DNA of 35,577 bases from a virus. Positions 5,918-27,796 of the stretch are shown piece by piece (the first letter of the stretch is position 1; each line of letters begins with the position of its first letter). Made by a program: the position numbers and the translations under genes. The stretch is taken from positions 1-35,577 of the IMG/VR virus record IMGVR_UViG_3300031707_000083; one strand, 5' to 3'. The notes under the pieces are model-generated. The model searched no databases. It was not told the origin of the DNA and worked only from the letters and a program-made list of their open reading frames with translations.

Positions 5918-7921
5918 ATGGATAAATATTACAACCACCCAAATGTAGAATCTACAGTTGGCACTGGAATACAAAAGAATTTAGATAAGAATAGGGCTAA
6001 ATTCTTAAATACACATGATGTAATTTCTGCAAAGGTAGTAACCCTTAAAGATCCATATCGTTCTGGCAATATAGGAATAAAAATAACAGGTGTACATCAG
6101 GAGGATGTGCCAGCTGAGGATGTATTATTTGCTCCTATGTTAATGCCTTTTGGCGGAGGAGATGGTTATGGTTTCTTCTCTATGCCACCTATAGGATCTG
6201 ATGTAATGGTTACTTTTCTTGATGGAGATCTTAAAAATCCTGTGATTCTTGGGGCTTGGCAATCCAGAAAGATGATTTTAAAGAGTCAGTCTTCTTTTAA
6301 TGAAATAGCGACTACGATAGGAGCTGGTGCTAATTATAGAGCACTGGCTAATACAATATTAATCCCAGCATCAAAAGCTTTTGGAGATTCTAAACAATTT
6401 TTTCAGTTGGGTCAATTAACTCCTGCTTCTCAAGACGCTATTAAGGGTTTTGCATTAGGGGCAATGAAGACTATTATACCAGGGTTTGTAGGCCAAATAT
6501 TAGGTCCAGCTGCATGTTTCATTGATTTTAATACAGCAATAGACACAGTTCTTGGTCCTCCATTAACAGCAATCATATCTGGTCTTTCCACTGATGTTGA
6601 TACCTCAATTGCTATTGCTACCACTACTGATACAGTAACACCATTAATAATACAAGGGAAAGTTCAAGTTGTATCTTTAGTGGCTCAATTAAATTCCGCA
6701 TTTGCAATGGTTAGTACCCAATTAACATCATTAGATAGTGCTATAAAAGGAATGCCAGGCTTAATATCACAAGGATTAAACTCTGTAGCAAGCGATGCGC
6801 TAACTGGAATCCTAGGCCAACCAATAAAAGATGCTATTACAAGTGTAAATCCAATATTACAAGCACAAATTATTGGAAGTATACAAGCAGCTGCTACTCA
6901 AGGTATACGACAAATAACTGCTATGACTGGAGTCGGCTCAAGTCTAGACACAGCTTTAAAAGGTGCAAATTTAGCAACTGCTGTAACTTCTGGAACAATA
7001 ACAGAGGCAGAAGCAACTAAAGCATTGCAAGAAGATACAGTTGACTGGGTACTTGGGAAATCTGAAGGGGGAGAAGTACTTCAGGTATATGGGCCACAGT
7101 GCCCTCTTCCATATATGAATCAAACACCTGGCAGAGCATTAGATGTATTAGGACAAAATCTTACTCAAAATACAGATCCAAATCAAGAAGAACTTAATAG
7201 TTGTTATTTGTCACAAGATTTGGCAACAGATAGTAGTAGTGGTGCTATAAATCCTGCTCCGTGCAATTATATTTGGAAATCACCTGAAGGAAGCGCTATA
7301 GAAATAGACGATACAGGGTATGCAGAAAATGGAAAAGGAATAGATAACAGGGGTGTAAGATTAACAACAAAGAAGGGAGCATTAGTTCACCTTGTTGATG
7401 AGAAAGATGGTGAGTGTATTCTAATAAGAGATAAAAATAACAATTACATCTGGATTGATACTATTAACAATAATATCAATATATTCTCTAATAATAATAT
7501 GAGTGAGAAGATAACAAAAGACAAAACAACAACCTGCGTCAATATGTCAGAAACTATGACTGGTGCTCAAACTACTACTGTTGCAAAAGATCAAAAAGAA
7601 ACTATATCTGGAAACAAGTATAGCAATACCGCACTAAATAGAATAGAGACAGTAGGTACTAATTGGTCTATTACAGTTAATGGCAATGCTAATATTTATA
7701 GTAATGAGAATGTAGCTATTTCAGCAGCTAAAGAGGTAATTGTTGGCGGCGGCCTTAAGGCTGTACTAGCATCTGATGTAATGGTAAAGCTTAAGGCACC
7801 TATTATTAGTATAGAGGGTGGAACTACAGGTGCTTCTTGGATGGCTCCAACTCCAATACATATATGGTCAGCTGTTGAAGTTCATTTGAAAGCACCGTTA
7901 ATAAATATCGGAGCTACATAA
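5918..7921 (+). CDS. Baseplate central spike protein (gp5/VgrG-like)
   Basis: A 667-residue protein forming the membrane-piercing spike. Residues about 35-125 form an OB-fold of the gp5/VgrG N-terminal type: 'VISAKVVTLKDPYRSGNIGI' then 'PPIGSDVMVTFLDGDLKNPV' and 'ILGAW'. Residues about 130-380 are an Ala/Thr/Ile-rich helical insert. Residues about 445-660 are a repetitive beta region ('GSAIEIDDTGY', 'NNNYIWIDTINNNINIFSNN', 'NANIYSNENVAISA') that fits a trimeric beta-helix needle. There is no lysozyme domain between the OB-fold and the needle, unlike T4 gp5, so cell-wall cutting must come from another protein. The gene follows the small membrane gene without a gap and ends one base before the zinc-ribbon gene. 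Confidence 0.85.
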   Translation: MDKYYNHPNVESTVGTGIQKNLDKNRAKFLNTHDVISAKVVTLKDPYRSGNIGIKITGVHQEDVPAEDVLFAPMLMPFGGGDGYGFFSMPPIGSDVMVTFLDGDLKNPVILGAWQSRKMILKSQSSFNEIATTIGAGANYRALANTILIPASKAFGDSKQFFQLGQLTPASQDAIKGFALGAMKTIIPGFVGQILGPAACFIDFNTAIDTVLGPPLTAIISGLSTDVDTSIAIATTTDTVTPLIIQGKVQVVSLVAQLNSAFAMVSTQLTSLDSAIKGMPGLISQGLNSVASDALTGILGQPIKDAITSVNPILQAQIIGSIQAAATQGIRQITAMTGVGSSLDTALKGANLATAVTSGTITEAEATKALQEDTVDWVLGKSEGGEVLQVYGPQCPLPYMNQTPGRALDVLGQNLTQNTDPNQEELNSCYLSQDLATDSSSGAINPAPCNYIWKSPEGSAIEIDDTGYAENGKGIDNRGVRLTTKKGALVHLVDEKDGECILIRDKNNNYIWIDTINNNINIFSNNNMSEKITKDKTTTCVNMSETMTGAQTTTVAKDQKETISGNKYSNTALNRIETVGTNWSITVNGNANIYSNENVAISAAKEVIVGGGLKAVLASDVMVKLKAPIISIEGGTTGASWMAPTPIHIWSAVEVHLKAPLINIGAT

Positions 7922-8116
7922 ATGAAAGATCATATATACATATTTAAGGTAGAATGTAATAGTTGTAAAAAAATAAAAATTGAAAAAGTATTTCTAAGTT
8001 TATATATTGAACCTGAGATAGTATGGAAGACTTATTTATTATTAAGTGGAAGAAATTATTATACTTGTAAAGATTGTACATTAAGTTTTATAAAAAGAAT
8101 TGGGATAAATATATGA
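7922..8116 (+). CDS. Small zinc-ribbon-like protein, 64 residues
   Basis: The product has two CxxC pairs: 'CNSCKK' near residue 13 and 'CKDC' near residue 50, the spacing expected of a four-Cys zinc ribbon. It begins directly after the spike stop codon (TAA-ATG) and its TGA overlaps the ATG of the PAAR gene (ATGA). No family is recognised. Its place between spike and spike tip is unusual. It could be a structural adaptor, an assembly factor, or simply a small regulatory protein carried in the operon. Confidence 0.6.
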   Translation: MKDHIYIFKVECNSCKKIKIEKVFLSLYIEPEIVWKTYLLLSGRNYYTCKDCTLSFIKRIGINI

Positions 8117-8385
8117 GCCTACCACAATGTCGTGTTGGCGATACTTCAAATCATGGTGGTACTATAATAAGTACACCTATTACAGGAGTATATGTAGACA
8201 CTATATTGCCAGCAGTCATAGGAGCAATGCATTCATGCCCAATACCGTTTCACGGAATAACACCAATAGTATCTTCACCTATTACAAGTGTGCGTATTGA
8301 AGGAATAGTTACAGCAATGGTTGGTTCAGTTGCAGGTTGTGGAGCAGTAATGGTAACAGGAAGTCCTACAACAAACATAGTATAG
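8113..8385 (+). CDS. PAAR-domain spike tip protein
   Basis: A 90-residue protein starting at the ATG that overlaps the previous stop. An upstream in-frame ATG at 8074 is inside the previous gene and has no good ribosome site, so I prefer 8113. PAAR features are 'CRVGDTSNHGGTIISTPITG', then 'GAMHSCPIPFHGITPIV', and the Gly-rich end 'CGAVMVTGSPTTNIV'. PAAR proteins cap the spike with a metal-stabilised cone; the Cys and His residues at about 6, 14, 41, 43, 48 and 77 are the likely metal ligands. The order spike, PAAR, gp25 is the usual one in contractile tails. Confidence 0.85.
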   Translation: MSLPQCRVGDTSNHGGTIISTPITGVYVDTILPAVIGAMHSCPIPFHGITPIVSSPITSVRIEGIVTAMVGSVAGCGAVMVTGSPTTNIV

Positions 8386-8392
8386 GAGATTT

Positions 8393-8782
8393 ATGGCACA
8401 AACAGTTGTTCAGAACCCTAAGTACTTTGGGATAGGCTTTAACTTCGGAAAGAGTATTAATGGTTATTTTTCAACTTCTGCAGATAAGAAGCTTGTAAAA
8501 GAAAACATGAAACAGATACTTCTTACTAACCCAGGTGAAAGAATAATGCTTCCTGATTTTGGAGTCGGCTTAAGAAGATATTTATTTGAAATGAATGATG
8601 AACAACTAGCAACTGTTATTAGAGAGAAAATAGTTCAGCAAGTAGCTAAATATGAACCGCTTGCTAATATTATAGATATACAATTTAAACAACAAGATAA
8701 TGAAATGAGAATAAGAATTACATACCGATTGAAGGATGTAACTTATGAACAAGCTGTGTTGGAATTTTCTATAACCCAATAA
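8393..8782 (+). CDS. Baseplate wedge protein gp25-like (W-like)
   Basis: A 129-residue protein of the gp25 family, which nucleates the sheath on the baseplate. The diagnostic segment is 'ENMKQILLTNPGERIMLPDF' followed by 'GVGLRRYLFE', including the highly conserved 'NPGER...P.FG.GL...lFe' pattern. The family's usual length is about 110-140 residues. The ribosome site AGGAG is six bases before the ATG. The next gene is the gp6/J-like wedge protein, as in P2-like and T4-like baseplates. Confidence 0.9.
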   Translation: MAQTVVQNPKYFGIGFNFGKSINGYFSTSADKKLVKENMKQILLTNPGERIMLPDFGVGLRRYLFEMNDEQLATVIREKIVQQVAKYEPLANIIDIQFKQQDNEMRIRITYRLKDVTYEQAVLEFSITQ

Positions 8783-8798
8783 TTAGAGGAGATTAAAA

Positions 8799-11084
8799 AT
8801 GCCGGTACCAATTGAACTTGGAAGTTTAAATAATCTACCACCTTTAGATAAAATCAAATATACTCAGCTTGATTATGATACGATAAAACAAGGGATTGTA
8901 CAGTTTATACGCGCAAATTACCCTAATATCCAGAACGATTTTTTTGAATCTAATGCTGGTATAATGATTATTGATTTGCTTTCGTGGATAAATGATACTC
9001 TTGCCTTAAGAGCAGATTTCTTAGTTAATGAAGCATATCTCGCAACAGCATCAACGCAAAAGGCTATTCTACAGATGTTAAGTTATATTAACTATTATCC
9101 AGCAAGCGCATCTCCTGCAGTAGGTACAGTTACTATTACTCTTACGGATGGAGATCCTGGTTTATTTACTGGTGCAGCATTAACTAATGATGTAATCATA
9201 TCTACAGCGAGTGCACCCTATGAAATATTCATTACCGATAATTCTGGAAATCCTCTTACCTATGAAGTATTCAAGTCTTCGATAGACAGAGAATCTACAG
9301 TAATATTTCCAGCAGGTTCCATAATTGGTAGTTATATCACTGCTGATATACATGAGGGTAAAACAGTATTAAATAATATAAAATTACCTTCTAATGTTAC
9401 TCAAAATTTTACTATAACATTACCTGATACAAATATCATAGAAAACGAAAACGATGTTACTATAAATATCAATGGTGTTATATGGAGACAAACGACTAAC
9501 TTTGCATTTGAGAATGGTCAAACTAATACATTTGAATTAAGACAAATAAATCAATCACAATATAATGTAGTGTTCGGAGATGGTATTTTTGGAGCTATTC
9601 CACCATCAAATGGTTTAATTGATATTAAATATAGGATTGGTGGAGGAGCTGTTGGTAATATATCACTTGGTACAATGAATACTGTGCAGACACTCACCTC
9701 AAATCAATTACCTGTAACATTTAAGTTTTATAATTCAACAGCTGCTGTTGGTGGTGCTGATCAGGAGAATTTAGAATATAGTAAGAAAATAGCACCAAAA
9801 AACTTTGCTGCTCAATTAAGAACTGTAACTGGAGAAGACTATACTGTTTATGCCTTAGGTTATGGTAATGGTACAAGCGGTAGTATTGCTAAAGCATTGT
9901 CTATTATACGACCTTATCTCGCCGCCTATGGCAGAAATACAGGCAATTATGATATATCAAGCTCAAATAATAAAATAAAGCTCCGTATAGATGATACATA
10001 TAGAACCATTACACTTGCCACTGGAACAAACTTAACTCTTCAGCAGGTGTGTGATGATTTTAATACTAAAGTAGCTGCATTTTTTACACCTCCAACACTT
10101 GTTAATTTTTCTGCTTTTCCATATCCAGCTACTATTTATAAGATTACTAATACAAAAACAGACGCTGCTGTAACAATTGATAATTTAACTAGAAACATGG
10201 TCATAAAATATAATCTTGATCTTTTCACAGTTGCTCTTACGACTGGAATAAGAACCTATCAACAGATTTGTGATGATATTAATGCACAAACTAATATAGG
10301 AAATAATACAAATTTATATGAATTCAGAGCAGAGGTAATAAATGGGCATATAGAATTGATTGCAGTAAGACAATATGATCCAGGAACAGATATATTCTAT
10401 TTGGATGCTGCATCAAATAGCGCTTATCTGCTACTTGGTTTTACAATTTTAGTAGCTCCACTTGCATCTAGTGGAAACAAATTTGCAACAGGATTAAACT
10501 ATCATAATCCATCAGCTGCGCTTGAAGTAATGAATATTGCAAATAATGCTTATGATACACTTGGACTAGATTATAGCACATCAGGCAATGGATTAGGTAG
10601 AGCATTACCTATGGCAGCTAATTATGTGGATATATATGTGTTAGCTAACGGCGCTGGTAATATAATAACTACAGCTTCCACAGCGCTTAAAAGTGCATTG
10701 CTTAATTTTATTAATAGATTTAAAGTTTTAACAGATAATATTGGTATTTGGGATGGATCAATTAAGCTAATAGGATTTAATATTCTTATAGTTGTTAATC
10801 CATCTTATAATATTAAAACTGTTAGAAATAATGCATTAGCTTATCTAAATGTATATACTTCTGGGGCATTAAATAATTTTGGAGACTCAATGTATATATC
10901 AAAAATATATGAACTATTAGAGGCTGTTAATGGTGTAGATCATGTAGAAATAAATGATATAACTGAAAATGGTATTTCACAATTAACATCTGGAAATGGT
11001 CTAATAAGAGATATTGCAACGAATTGGAATGAAGTTTGGATTAGAGACATTATTACTTTGACAGCTGAATATAAGGCGGCATAA
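8799..11084 (+). CDS. Baseplate wedge protein gp6/J-like with an inserted module
   Basis: A 761-residue protein of the baseplate J / gp6 family, which builds the wedge ring. The N-terminus 'QNDFFESNAGIMIIDLLSWI' and 'RADFLVNEAYLATASTQKAI' is typical, as are the central 'NVVFGDGIFGAIPPSNGLID' and 'LRTVTGEDYTVYA' motifs and the end 'YVDIYVLANGAG', 'ALLNFINRFKVLTDNIGIWD'. Between the two halves, at about residues 375-590, lies an insert with two related units ('NKIKLRIDDTYRTITLATGT' + 'LTLQQVCDDFN' and 'MVIKYNLDLFTVALTTGIRT' + 'YQQICDDIN'), ending in 'AYLLLGF'. The insert resembles flagellin-IN-type beta modules. The ribosome site AGAGGAG is ideal. Confidence 0.85.
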   Translation: MPVPIELGSLNNLPPLDKIKYTQLDYDTIKQGIVQFIRANYPNIQNDFFESNAGIMIIDLLSWINDTLALRADFLVNEAYLATASTQKAILQMLSYINYYPASASPAVGTVTITLTDGDPGLFTGAALTNDVIISTASAPYEIFITDNSGNPLTYEVFKSSIDRESTVIFPAGSIIGSYITADIHEGKTVLNNIKLPSNVTQNFTITLPDTNIIENENDVTININGVIWRQTTNFAFENGQTNTFELRQINQSQYNVVFGDGIFGAIPPSNGLIDIKYRIGGGAVGNISLGTMNTVQTLTSNQLPVTFKFYNSTAAVGGADQENLEYSKKIAPKNFAAQLRTVTGEDYTVYALGYGNGTSGSIAKALSIIRPYLAAYGRNTGNYDISSSNNKIKLRIDDTYRTITLATGTNLTLQQVCDDFNTKVAAFFTPPTLVNFSAFPYPATIYKITNTKTDAAVTIDNLTRNMVIKYNLDLFTVALTTGIRTYQQICDDINAQTNIGNNTNLYEFRAEVINGHIELIAVRQYDPGTDIFYLDAASNSAYLLLGFTILVAPLASSGNKFATGLNYHNPSAALEVMNIANNAYDTLGLDYSTSGNGLGRALPMAANYVDIYVLANGAGNIITTASTALKSALLNFINRFKVLTDNIGIWDGSIKLIGFNILIVVNPSYNIKTVRNNALAYLNVYTSGALNNFGDSMYISKIYELLEAVNGVDHVEINDITENGISQLTSGNGLIRDIATNWNEVWIRDIITLTAEYKAA

Positions 11085-19508: not shown

Positions 19509-20003
19509 GTGGCTGGCAGGCTGGAATTTGGAGACTTGGTGCTGCAAAGATATGGCAATTGGCATAGAGATCCAAACCCTCTTATATTTGTTCTTTATAG
19601 CGATGCTTTATATACACACGGACTTAATTCTCATTACATAAGTAAAACCGAAGCAGAACAATTACGTAAGCTAATGTGCTATATACCACCCGGGCAACAG
19701 CATCTTGCTTATGATTTTTTGAAAGCACGGTTTAACTCGGTTCTTAGAAGTTATAGAGTATATAAAACACCATTAATTTATATTATAAAAAAATGGAGAG
19801 CTATAGAGCTTAAGGATTCAAAGACACAGGATATAGTTAATAAATTTTTCGACAGTTCAAAAAGTTATCAGAAAGTATTACAATCGCATTATCAAACGCC
19901 AGCAAGTAAGAAAGCTGCTGGTATTAGTAGTACAGAACAGGCTCTATTAAGTTCATTAAGAAATGCTTTGGTTAAGTTATCAGCAAAGGCGGCTAAGAAA
20001 TGA
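19509..20003 (+). CDS. Unknown conserved-looking phage protein, 164 residues
   Basis: The best start is a GTG at 19509, two bases inside an ATG at 19507 that opens a different, 44-codon frame; both share one GGAGAGG ribosome site. The product starts 'MAGRLEFGDLVLQRYGNWHR' then 'DPNPLIFVLYSDALYTHGLN', a pattern (short beta protein, 'D.NPlifvLy.....hGlN..Yi') that I associate with small phage proteins of unknown role. A basic C-terminus ('LRNALVKLSAKAAKK') follows. It overlaps the next gene by four bases. Confidence 0.55.
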   Translation: MAGRLEFGDLVLQRYGNWHRDPNPLIFVLYSDALYTHGLNSHYISKTEAEQLRKLMCYIPPGQQHLAYDFLKARFNSVLRSYRVYKTPLIYIIKKWRAIELKDSKTQDIVNKFFDSSKSYQKVLQSHYQTPASKKAAGISSTEQALLSSLRNALVKLSAKAAKK

Positions 20004-20560
20004 AATCAAAATATTATAATACATTACACAAAATATTCGAAGCTAGATCATTCCAAGAATTCTTTGAAATTCAGCAAGATGTTTGGCGGAGAATTCAAGA
20101 AATAGCTAAATCAAAAAATTACATTTTGACCGATTATGAACTTCGAACTCAAGATGGAAAAACATTAATTGATATGAATTCAGATGATAGCTGGAATCAG
20201 CTATTAATCTTGTTAGGTTTAGAAGATCTGAAAGATGAACCAATAAGATCAATAAACATCAATCGATTCAGCAAAATCAAGGCTTACCCGAAAAGCAGCA
20301 TCTATAAAATCAAAATAGAGGGAGACCTTGGGGCAGAAGAATTACCAGACGAAGATCAAATCAAAGAAATATTAACTGCTAATCTGGCCCCACTTGATGG
20401 CAAAATTCAAGGCAAAGTTCAAATAACTAAGCAAGATGCTAATGTTTTTATAGCATTTGATGCTGTCACTAATTCAGATGAAGAGGATGTAAAGAAATAT
20501 ATCAGTACGAACTTTGATAAGATATTGTCTATTAAGAACATCTCAATTAAAAAATTATGA
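20000..20560 (+). CDS. Unknown protein, 186 residues
   Basis: The N-terminal half is helical ('RSFQEFFEIQQDVWRRIQEI'). The C-terminal half, from residue 95, shows alternating strands and acidic helices ('SSIYKIKIEGDLGAEELPDE', 'VFIAFDAVTNSDEEDVKKYI') that could form a ferredoxin-like fold. It overlaps both neighbours by ATGA. No function is recognised. Confidence 0.6.
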   Translation: MKSKYYNTLHKIFEARSFQEFFEIQQDVWRRIQEIAKSKNYILTDYELRTQDGKTLIDMNSDDSWNQLLILLGLEDLKDEPIRSININRFSKIKAYPKSSIYKIKIEGDLGAEELPDEDQIKEILTANLAPLDGKIQGKVQITKQDANVFIAFDAVTNSDEEDVKKYISTNFDKILSIKNISIKKL

Positions 20561-20952
20561 AGAATAAGTTATTTAGCATAATTGTTCGTTATTTTCCAGA
20601 AGAATTTTTTAATATAACTGAAAGACATGAAAAAATAGGTGCTTGGTATTTTGTAGTTGATGATAAAGATACTGAAGGTAAGAATATACATGCTTCTTTC
20701 TTTATATATGAAAATGAACCTAATAGTGTAAGCATAGAAATAAACAACGTTCTTGCTAAATCTGAAGTAGATGATTGTGGAGAAGCTATATTAAAAGTAC
20801 TGAATGATGCTATTGAACTTAGAGAGCGGTATCTAAAGATTTCAGAGCATCAAAAAAAGTTGATTGATTTGGAAAAGATAAGAAAAGGTGAATCTATAAA
20901 AGAGATAGTGTCTGAAGAACCGAAAGAAAAGCAAGAAGAAAAAACGGGATAA
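20557..20952 (+). CDS. Unknown protein, 131 residues
   Basis: A small alpha/beta protein ('KIGAWYFVVDDKDTEGKNIH', 'SVSIEINNVLAKSEVDDCGE') with a highly charged C-terminal helix ('EEPKEKQEEKTG'). It is translationally coupled to the previous gene (ATGA). It precedes the Csx15-like gene by 27 bases. No family is recognised. Confidence 0.6.
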   Translation: MKNKLFSIIVRYFPEEFFNITERHEKIGAWYFVVDDKDTEGKNIHASFFIYENEPNSVSIEINNVLAKSEVDDCGEAILKVLNDAIELRERYLKISEHQKKLIDLEKIRKGESIKEIVSEEPKEKQEEKTG

Positions 20953-20979
20953 AAATTATATAAAAGGTGGTTTAATTAT

Positions 20980-21423
20980 ATGGAGGGTAATAGAACTCTT
21001 TATATTATCAATTTCGGCAGAAAATTGCATGAAAACATCATAAAAGAAATAGAATCAAAATATAAGACGATAGTAATAGAAGAAATTGCAAAAGTCAATC
21101 TAAATCTTTCTAAGAATCTATATATACAAATAATAGATGTTATAAATTCTATTCCTAAAAACCTGTTAGATGGAAATAAAAAAATCTGTATCAATTTCCC
21201 TGGATTACCTATCGCAGCAGCATATATACTCGTAGAATTACATGCAAAATTGGGCTATTTTCCTCTTGGTCTTGAGTTATATAGAACCAGAGAAGAAGAT
21301 CCTATATTTAATAATTGGCAATTGAAAAAATTGACGGATTTAGAATATGAAAGAAGTAGAAGCAGATCTAAAATGTTTTCGCCAGAGGAACGTGAAATCG
21401 AAGAAGAATTACAGTTACATTAA
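20980..21423 (+). CDS. Csx15-like protein, candidate anti-type III CRISPR
   Basis: A 147-residue protein. The N-terminus 'LYIINFGRKLHENIIKEIES' and the central segment 'ICINFPGLPIAAAYILVELH' followed by 'AKLGYFPLGLELYR' match the pattern I know from Csx15, a small accessory protein of type III CRISPR loci ('LNF..PLt..q...Ie' and 'iNlPGL..AAa.LLaElHgr.GyFP.iirL'). Csx15 belongs to the group of proteins linked to cyclic oligoadenylate second messengers. A phage copy would most simply act by binding or degrading that messenger, as AcrIII-1 ring nucleases do. The C-terminus is charged (Arg/Ser then Glu-rich). It is the last gene of the plus operon, has an AGGTGG ribosome site, and no other cas-like gene or array is near. 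The function is inferred. Confidence 0.65.
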   Translation: MEGNRTLYIINFGRKLHENIIKEIESKYKTIVIEEIAKVNLNLSKNLYIQIIDVINSIPKNLLDGNKKICINFPGLPIAAAYILVELHAKLGYFPLGLELYRTREEDPIFNNWQLKKLTDLEYERSRSRSKMFSPEEREIEEELQLH

Positions 21424-22139: not shown

Positions 22140-22174
22140 ATTATATCACATTTGTGTACTTTTGTAAATGATTA
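22140..22174 (-). promoter_or_regulatory. Sigma70-type promoter, copy A of a 35-bp repeat
   Basis: On the minus strand: -35 TTTACA (22168-22163), a 17-base spacer, -10 TATAAT (22145-22140). The spacer holds the inverted repeat CACA-AA-TGTG. The whole 35-base element, starting with the TAA stop of the upstream gene, matches copy B at 32620-32654 with only two differences. It drives the 183-residue gene. Confidence 0.8.
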
Positions 22175-27100: not shown

Positions 27101-27513
27101 TCAATTCTTGGTCTTCTATAAAAACCAATCATATTAGCCGCTGTAATGATATTGTATAATGATTTTATACCACTGCTATCTTTTGCTAATAGTATTAAAT
27201 GATTATTTCTTGATCGTGATTTTATTTCCTCTTTTCTATCAGCCTTATTGAAGTCTTCTTCTTCAGATATTCCCTTTAGAGTCATTTCAAAAGGAGCTAT
27301 GTATATCTCTAAGCCGAATATAGGCTTTATCTTAGCCTCTAAGCATAATGCCTGAAAGTCTAGAAACCCTGCACACGTTCCATGATCGGTTATGGATAAG
27401 CTATTGAACCCACATTCTTTTGCATATTTGACAAAATCTGTTATTCTGCCACAACCATCCAATAAACTATACATTGTATGGTTGTGGCATGAAACCCAAT
27501 TCTTTTTTTCCAT
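24166..27513 (-). CDS. dnaE: DNA polymerase III alpha subunit (DnaE-like)
   Basis: A 1115-residue replicative polymerase. I chose the ATG at 27513, which overlaps the previous TAA, and not the longer frame from 27549. The N-terminal PHP domain has 'HNHTMYSLLDG', 'ITDHGT', 'FGLEIYI', 'NNHLILLAKD', 'ICTTACLGS' and 'NDVHYI', so the usual metal ligands all seem present. The polymerase part shows 'GPGRGSVGGS', then 'SPDIDTDIED' near residue 443 (two catalytic Asp), 'FLKMDLLGLKTL' (third Asp), 'ALHRPGPI', 'VIIYQEQIIELFNKLGLDYG' and 'YSFNKSHAIEYAIVSYWEMY'. A C-terminal OB-like part follows. No separate proofreading exonuclease is seen in the window, so the PHP domain may serve. It is the largest gene of the minus operon. 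Confidence 0.95.
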   Translation of the reverse strand: MEKKNWVSCHNHTMYSLLDGCGRITDFVKYAKECGFNSLSITDHGTCAGFLDFQALCLEAKIKPIFGLEIYIAPFEMTLKGISEEEDFNKADRKEEIKSRSRNNHLILLAKDSSGIKSLYNIITAANMIGFYRRPRIDYDFLSKNSAGLICTTACLGSRLCNFILDNNESKIEQEISFLKGLFKEDLYLELQANAMPEQKAVNKKLIELSKKHNIKTIITNDVHYINKDYKKAHEVLIKVNSDSDWEFSASDLYLMNYDDFFKHVKSNHDYIVDNIIKVSLKNTNEIAEKCNASIDVKSKKEPKYINTKNIENHDFLSELIVKGIYSRGIDKLPTNVNSFHETYKIKKFKINNPYIANMREFYLNRLKYEFQIIKDKGYIDYFLIVWDFINYAKRNDVLVGPGRGSVGGSVLAWIIGLIELDPIEYKLSFERFLNPARAKSPDIDTDIEDTKRDFVRQYLADKWGENCIAPIVAYSRYSANSLFRDICKLYKYDFMVYNEIAKTIETGTAELRKLRSFKENLEINEKLKDFIDSKGADGVEITELIARMEGQIKNTSIAAAGTIISNQPLQEILPLRRAKDKAIVTEWEGSKLIASGFLKMDLLGLKTLTYLKECLKMINKDINWLYDLPTDDPAVYEYFHQGKTSAIFQFEGPSITGIVKKVKPNSVEDIAICSALHRPGPITHGILSDYIERRSGDREITYIHPITKDILSDTLGVIIYQEQIIELFNKLGLDYGEADILRRTLDEGGNIDKYYTKIKELKVLPEYELDKLIKDIQDRSGYSFNKSHAIEYAIVSYWEMYMKVYYPLEFCLANLNENLRSYGREDENKIHNNIRMYEDELQKRIYYGNINDFTTRFEIVHNTIGFGYACIKYLNEENLGKAIALRPFTSVEDFLRRGKKVIKKNVVEIIIELGLLDDIKLLEKSEIKLNRSQLFKYLDLFQKYSDKTQKQLKIDPILKGDINNIFTIEFINKEKVLDITENKGDIIQRESDLEFQKTIMELLRSFKTQGTEKLIEGYINSQMSNPYKRKGKPIGDIFIVYVIEIEVVKKTFKNGKEGAMCTLYFIDKNNDSHQGLMFTNTKDIKENDIILVELEKSERKRKLVLGHINLNLYE

Positions 27514-27796
27514 TATTTCTTCGCTTTCTTCCATATAAAACCATGGCAAATAATATTTTTATCACAACGACTGCTAATTGTGCTTGCGCATATTCCTGTT
27601 TTTCTTGCTGCGTCTCTAATTCCTTCATATTTTTCTAATAATTTTCCATCTATACTATATTTATTCACTGGAATTGAACGCTGATGATCTTTACCAAATT
27701 TACCAAATTGTGCACCTTTTATTCCAAGAACTTTATATGAATGGCAACGGGACCGCCGCCATATTTGCGGGCGATCCGGAGGCTGACCCATTCCAT
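27513..27796 (-). pseudogene. Frameshifted NUMOD-type homing endonuclease remnant with GC-rich start
   Basis: A GGAGG site precedes an ATG at 27796 whose 25-codon frame reads 'MEWVSLRIARKYGGGPVAIH', like the helix-turn-helix at the start of phage HNH proteins. It then stops at 27719. In the next frame (open from 27791 to 27513) the continuation reads 'LGIKGAQFGKFGKDHQRSIP', then 'VNKYSIDGKLLEKYEGIRDA' and 'ARKTGICASTISS', ending 'CHGFIWKK'. That is a NUMOD1 DNA-binding module. Both parts join if one base shift is allowed near 27735. No HNH catalytic motif remains. Bases about 27740-27790 are roughly 60 percent GC, unlike the surrounding 30 percent. The stop overlaps the polymerase ATG. Confidence 0.6.

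Follow-up and report, generated by a model that had tools for sequence, protein, structure and literature searches.

Gene content around csx15

The stretch of DNA analyzed (the window) is a virus record from IMG/VR; it comprises 35,577 bases and may be a fragment. The features that surround its csx15-like gene are as follows:

20980..21423, plus strand: csx15-like gene, 147 aa, with an ATG start; the gene ends the rightward virion block
20963..20970, plus strand: strong ribosome-binding site AAAGGTGG, read from the sequence, 9 nt before the ATG
5918..11084, plus strand: baseplate hub and wedge genes (PHROGs tail families), in the same rightward block as csx15
19509..20952, plus strand: three genes of unknown function immediately 5' of csx15, compared by tblastn with related contigs L131/L132
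21525..23984, minus strand: leftward genes facing csx15, namely an unknown ORF, thymidylate synthase, dUTPase, and dCMP deaminase (Pfam)

The baseplate hub and wedge subunits are of the T4 type, and the phage is contractile-tailed. Their presence in the same block as csx15 agrees with the first-pass annotation of this DNA, which had called the gene phage-encoded; it had also placed csx15 at the end of a phage operon, and the gene is indeed the last of the rightward virion block. That annotation further stated that cas genes were absent. None of the ten window ORFs of unknown function matched a defense family, and no CRISPR-like repeat array was found in the window; judged by those ten ORFs and the repeat search, csx15 lies outside any type III CRISPR locus. 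The three genes immediately upstream gave no match in PHROG and PADLOC searches, and their order is kept in both related contigs (tblastn, L131/L132). Related cultured phages were sought as a clue to the host, and only distant matches to T4-type tail and polymerase genes were obtained.

Further leftward genes downstream encode DNA polymerase III alpha, a UDG-superfamily protein, and a Rad50-like protein (Pfam). Between window positions 22172 and 31211, the minus strand encodes thymidylate synthase, dUTPase, dCMP deaminase, the UDG-superfamily protein, DNA polymerase III alpha, and a radical SAM/SPASM protein. A short NUMOD-like ORF was noted by eye at 27513-27791 (minus strand), beside the 5' end of the DNA polymerase III alpha gene; it is perhaps a homing-endonuclease remnant.

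Csx15 family membership and occurrence in viruses

The window protein scored 42.1 bits (E 8.9e-11) against the NCBIfam model NF040560 (CAS_Csx15), whose curated cut-off is 35 bits, over model positions 1-124 of 125, and the PADLOC Csx15 model matched it at E 1.1e-9. Over Pfam, PADLOC, and NCBIfam, Csx15 models gave the sole significant family matches, and the protein fell into neither AcrIII-1 nor AcrIII-2. A six-frame translation search recovered the window at 41.7 bits and gave matches in none of the 14 control genomes. Working in the reciprocal direction, a profile made from three phage sequences alone (those of the window and of two close relatives, L002 and L003) found a bacterial Csx15 as its best match in each of three whole genomes (E 1.2e-8, 2.6e-8, and 5.8e-8), and BLASTP against one bacterial copy, the second Csx15 of Desulfofundulus thermosubterraneus, gave E 5e-13 at 28% identity. 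The first-pass annotation had named a profile search against Csx15 as a check on its assignment; profile-profile comparison of the phage clade with canonical viral Csx15 returned a probability of 96.8%. On sequence comparison, the ORF at 20980-21423 is real and its product belongs to the Csx15 family, as had been proposed.

Identity to bacterial Csx15 proteins is only 15-28%, and a single-sequence search of solved structures returned two weak hits only, both of them Csx15: 9tet at E 0.019 and 9teu at E 0.12, which, from residue spacing in the alignments, would be PfCsx15 and CliCsx15, respectively. Such figures might be taken to mean that the Csx15 match is fortuitous, and the contig might likewise be bacterial DNA mislabeled as viral; however, the curated cut-off was passed, reciprocal matches were found, and baseplate genes lie in the block that contains csx15, so that we regard either event as hardly credible.

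Pattern and profile scans found Csx15 on ten IMG/VR contigs: the window, its two close relatives, and seven (L122-L128) that carry a canonical form of the protein. All eight of the IMG/VR records tested passed the NCBIfam cut-off. Three of the seven canonical contigs are clearly phage, and the assignment of the other four rests on the IMG/VR label. On L125, which is 135 kb long, a baseplate wedge protein and a sigma factor are encoded close to csx15; L122 and L126, which carry an identical Csx15 protein, have exonuclease VIII, Sak4, and SSB genes. The canonical proteins resemble that of the window in being virus-borne and above the NCBIfam cut-off, but they retain the motif-I His discussed below and are placed with bacterial copies in the tree. 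In that tree (126 columns, poorly resolved) the window clade sits on a very long branch, and the canonical viral copies are scattered among bacterial ones, which suggests that canonical viral Csx15 was acquired several times.

The survey of 28,114 phage genomes by Hoikkala et al. 2025 reported other ring nucleases but not Csx15, and the only structural study of the family argues from its absence from phage genomes that it may have no anti-CRISPR use (PMC13148439). The IMG/VR contigs contradict the reported absence, and phage Csx15 reopens the question of its use by phages against host defense. Phage ring nucleases and cyclic-nucleotide sponges are known kinds of protein; in the literature searched, which covered few preprints and subscription papers, phage Csx15 and a clade devoid of the motif-I His are new.

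A tblastn search of 50,697 INPHARED records with the window protein and two canonical viral Csx15 proteins yielded nothing convincing; the single weak hit (29% over 55%, E 0.1) fell in a region of head-tail structural genes of Escherichia phage BUCT618 and was rejected. Plasmids searched for Csx15 gave no match. Scanning IMG/VR for the motif IINFGRKL brought up ten further contigs, and these too were rejected, since in each the motif lay in a short, fortuitous reading frame that did not match Csx15.

The predicted cA4 site

Csx15 dimers stack head to tail and sandwich cA4 between them (Chi et al. 2026, PMC13148439). Two members have been characterized, and both are cA4-specific: PfCsx15 acts as a cA4 sponge, and CliCsx15, a slow cA4 ring nuclease, relieved cA4-dependent plasmid immunity in E. 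coli (PMC13148439). The link between the family and cyclic oligoadenylate that the first-pass annotation had drawn is thus now published, as cA4 binding by a sponge or slow ring nuclease. One face of the site consists of H82, R116, R120, and R123, and the opposite face of S9 and H11 (Pf numbering), and an aromatic residue, F106 in PfCsx15 and Y113 in CliCsx15, flanks the adenine (PMC13148439). Orphans constitute about 25% of csx15 genes, and a CRISPR locus is not a requirement of the family (PMC13148439). The corresponding parts of the window gene, located by alignment, are:

21004..21027, plus strand: motif I, residues 9-16, IINFGRKL, with Arg14 at 21019-21021
21235..21264, plus strand: core motif, residues 86-95, ELHAKLGYFP; E86, L87, H88, G92, F94, and P95 are invariant in a 64-row alignment
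21316..21318, plus strand: Trp113, counterpart of the adenine-flanking aromatic residue
21340..21372, plus strand: arginine helix, residues 121-131, LEYERSRSRSK; L121, R125, and R129 are invariant in the 64-row alignment

The core pattern ELH..xG.FP and two arginines of the cA4 face are invariant in 64 sequences, that of the window included. His88 is the counterpart of H82 in PfCsx15 and H90 in CliCsx15, and Arg125 and Arg129 align with R116 and R120 of PfCsx15. The Trp113 column holds Phe or Tyr in 99 of 99 bacterial rows. The third arginine, R123 of PfCsx15, is replaced by Met132, with K131 adjacent, and S9 by G13. At the motif-I histidine (H13 in CliCsx15, H11 in PfCsx15), the window has Arg14; the same His-to-Arg change is found in all three phage copies of the clade, and all 102 bacterial copies that have the column in the main survey carry His there, a count made without a filter on that column. 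Other near-invariant residues are also altered in the window clade (HGR to HAK, R.R to E.Y, and AE to KK); by position, the changes in the window include R to E at 99 and E to K at 117. The motifs quoted in the first-pass annotation are accordingly sound as family consensus but not as the literal letters of the window, which read IINFGRKL instead of LNF and, in the core INFPGLPIAAAYILVELHAKLGYFP, HAK instead of HGR. In the alignments, the window clade has largely kept the arginine and aromatic face, and its histidine loop has changed.

PfCsx15, an orphan from Pseudomonas fluorescens, is like the window protein in standing alone without cas genes and in possessing the second His and two of the site arginines; it differs in being bacterial, in having the motif-I His that its sponging needs, and in its third arginine. 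CliCsx15, from a type III-A locus of Chlorobaculum limnaeum, has its H90, aromatic, and arginine counterparts conserved in the phage protein, but it is CRISPR-associated and its catalytic H13 becomes Arg14 in the phage.

Cleavage by CliCsx15 needs both H13 and H90, and only the latter has a histidine counterpart in the window protein. Because the motif-I His that is needed is Arg14 here, cleavage of cA4 by the phage protein is predicted to be unlikely, and the cleaving activity offered as one option in the first-pass annotation loses its footing. An active ring nuclease that acts as an anti-CRISPR would require that Arg14 or another residue replaces the catalytic His. The slow ring nuclease activity of CliCsx15 (PMC13148439) and the retention of the second catalytic His as His88 speak for it; nevertheless, H13A abolishes cleavage by CliCsx15 (PMC13148439), the counterpart is Arg in every phage copy of the clade, and PfCsx15 hardly cleaves even though it has the motif-I His (PMC13148439), making this an improbable explanation. 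The consequences of the change for binding could go either way. The CliCsx15 H13A mutation, which stops cleavage, has only a subtle effect on cA4-driven oligomerization (PMC13148439), and loss of the His therefore need not abolish binding; the H11A mutation abolished sponging by PfCsx15 (PMC13148439), and Arg14 could thus also mean that cA4 binding was lost.

The genome search with the phage profile uncovered the same substitution in a bacterium. The second Csx15 of D. thermosubterraneus (L162:9264-9647, minus strand, in genome G010, contig C8; also L161) has the motif I IINFSRPL, and its gene is flanked by Cas10 and a CARF/Csx1-like gene; the locus, of type III-D, also holds Csm3-like and Cas5 III-D genes. 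A His-to-Arg variant beside Cas10 makes the change compatible with a role in type III signaling. Apart from its bacterial origin and its Cas10 neighbor, this copy differs from that of the window in that both HGR and the third arginine are kept. Binding without cleavage has a test case in these natural His-to-Arg variants, one in phage and one beside Cas10. Csx15 is common in Chloroflexota, where several genomes have two copies (L026 and L037, Anaerolinea thermophila TT109; L011 and L050; L031 and L105).

CbCash (PDB 9ylu) also contains a Csx15-like domain, which the family profile matches at E 1.6e-27. The domain lacks the motif-I His, which is Gln; however, CbCash is a 297-aa multi-part protein and its second His is also Gln. 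The Csx15-like part is C-terminal, at residues 168-290, and 28 chains are present over the three entries 9ylu, 9ylv, and 9ylx; no paper on CbCash was found in the literature searched.

AF2 prediction using 64 family sequences gave a model with pLDDT 86 and pTM 0.78. Using phage sequences alone the pLDDT was 56, and that model was left out of fold searches; because prediction fails on the phage sequences, the fold is a corollary of the family assignment and lends it no independent support. Foldseek placed CARF/SAVED cyclic-nucleotide receptors among the top matches to the family-based model, with weak significance. The first-ranked match was the CalpL filament bound to A4>p (E 3.7e-3, TM 0.40), and the CBASS SAVED receptors Cap4 and Cap5 were also included, with weak scores. 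Matches to Cap4 and Cap5, together with the several otherwise near-invariant residues that differ in the site region, might indicate a sponge for a different immune nucleotide (cA3, cA6, or a CBASS signal), the altered site then reflecting a changed ligand; sponges that phages direct at CBASS and other nucleotide systems have been described (PMC13148439 discussion). The cA4 specificity of both characterized proteins, the location of the bacterial Arg variant in a type III-D locus, and the weakness of the fold scores leave this idea quite improbable. The best viral fold match, in BFVD, was A0A1S5Y369 (E 6.7e-4, 18% identity). This 123-aa protein comes from an uncultured archaeal virus and is perhaps another viral Csx15-like protein.

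Sequence constraint and proposed function

In both related contigs csx15 occupies the same position as in the window, at the end of the virion block. By tblastn against L131/L132, protein identity is 84% for csx15 and 42-69% for the other shared genes, a range that omits one 23-residue piece; csx15 is the most conserved gene shared with these relatives, more so than the virion genes that surround it. Compared with L002 over 129 codons, csx15 shows a nonsynonymous difference (pN) of 0.11 and a synonymous difference of 0.94, which is saturated; the values for the neighboring gene at 19509-20003 are 0.24 and 0.88, the gene at 20000-20560 being left out of the comparison as misaligned. There is strong purifying selection on csx15, and the gene, passed on together with the virion block, is old in the phage lineage and under tight constraint. 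Conservation above that of virion genes is unusual for an anti-CRISPR or arms-race protein.

This constraint supports a real function, but it is also the main reason to keep a virion-related alternative, in which the Csx15 fold, having ceased to act on cyclic oligoadenylates, was recruited to the virion or late program, for instance in a structural or assembly role or for injection. The gene comes last in the virion block of each of the three related contigs, none of its counterparts there is matched in conservation by another shared gene, and the motif-I His has been lost from all three copies. A structural role does not, however, require the ligand-site residues H88, W113, R125, and R129, all of which are retained; moreover, the csx15 product matched no virion family in PHROGs, and canonical phage copies are found in other gene settings. 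We consider recruitment to the virion unlikely.

We favor, with a probability of about 0.55, the interpretation that phage Csx15 sequesters cyclic oligoadenylate without cleaving it and so blocks activation of host type III effectors. The product would be a dimeric CARF-superfamily protein of the Csx15 family whose ligand site, formed jointly by stacked dimers, binds a cyclic oligoadenylate, probably cA4; the ligand would be removed by sequestration, its ring left uncut, and the host type III CRISPR effector would consequently not be activated. Binding, stacking, and sponging of cA4 are extended here by analogy from the two characterized family members, the anti-CRISPR role is suggested by residence in a phage and the absence of cas genes, and loss of cleavage by the motif-I His-to-Arg change. 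The four conserved ligand-site residues, cA4 sponging by PfCsx15 and relief of plasmid immunity by CliCsx15, the type III-D Arg variant, and purifying selection argue in favor of sequestration; the PfCsx15 H11A phenotype, the substitutions at 99 and 117, and the seat of the gene in a virion block whose other genes are less conserved argue against it.

Like AcrIII-1 and AcrIII-2, the phage protein would be a viral product directed against the type III second messenger, which is shown for those two and proposed here. Unlike it, both of them cleave cA4, AcrIII-1 being of the Crn2 family and AcrIII-2 a SAVED protein; the parallel to AcrIII-1 drawn in the first-pass annotation thus stands for the proposed role but not for the family. 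More tentatively, Csx15 may constitute a further viral anti-type-III family, a non-cleaving, stacking cA4 sponge that was fixed in one phage lineage under constraint exceeding that on virion genes, its canonical form having been taken up separately by other phages. The authors of the structural study argue that type III systems make so much cOA that sponging may be to no avail (PMC13148439); if phages do use a pure cA4 sponge, that would bear on whether sequestration works against such output.

The junction of csx15 with its upstream gene varies among the three contigs. In both L002 (3925-4428 and 4289-4732) and L003 (7589-8101 and 7953-8411), the csx15 frame starts before the upstream gene has ended, so that the two share about 130 nt in different frames; the window genes do not overlap. 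L003 also has, at 7097-7588 (plus strand), a gene that by eye looks like a GIY-YIG endonuclease; it is inserted shortly before csx15 and separates two conserved genes.
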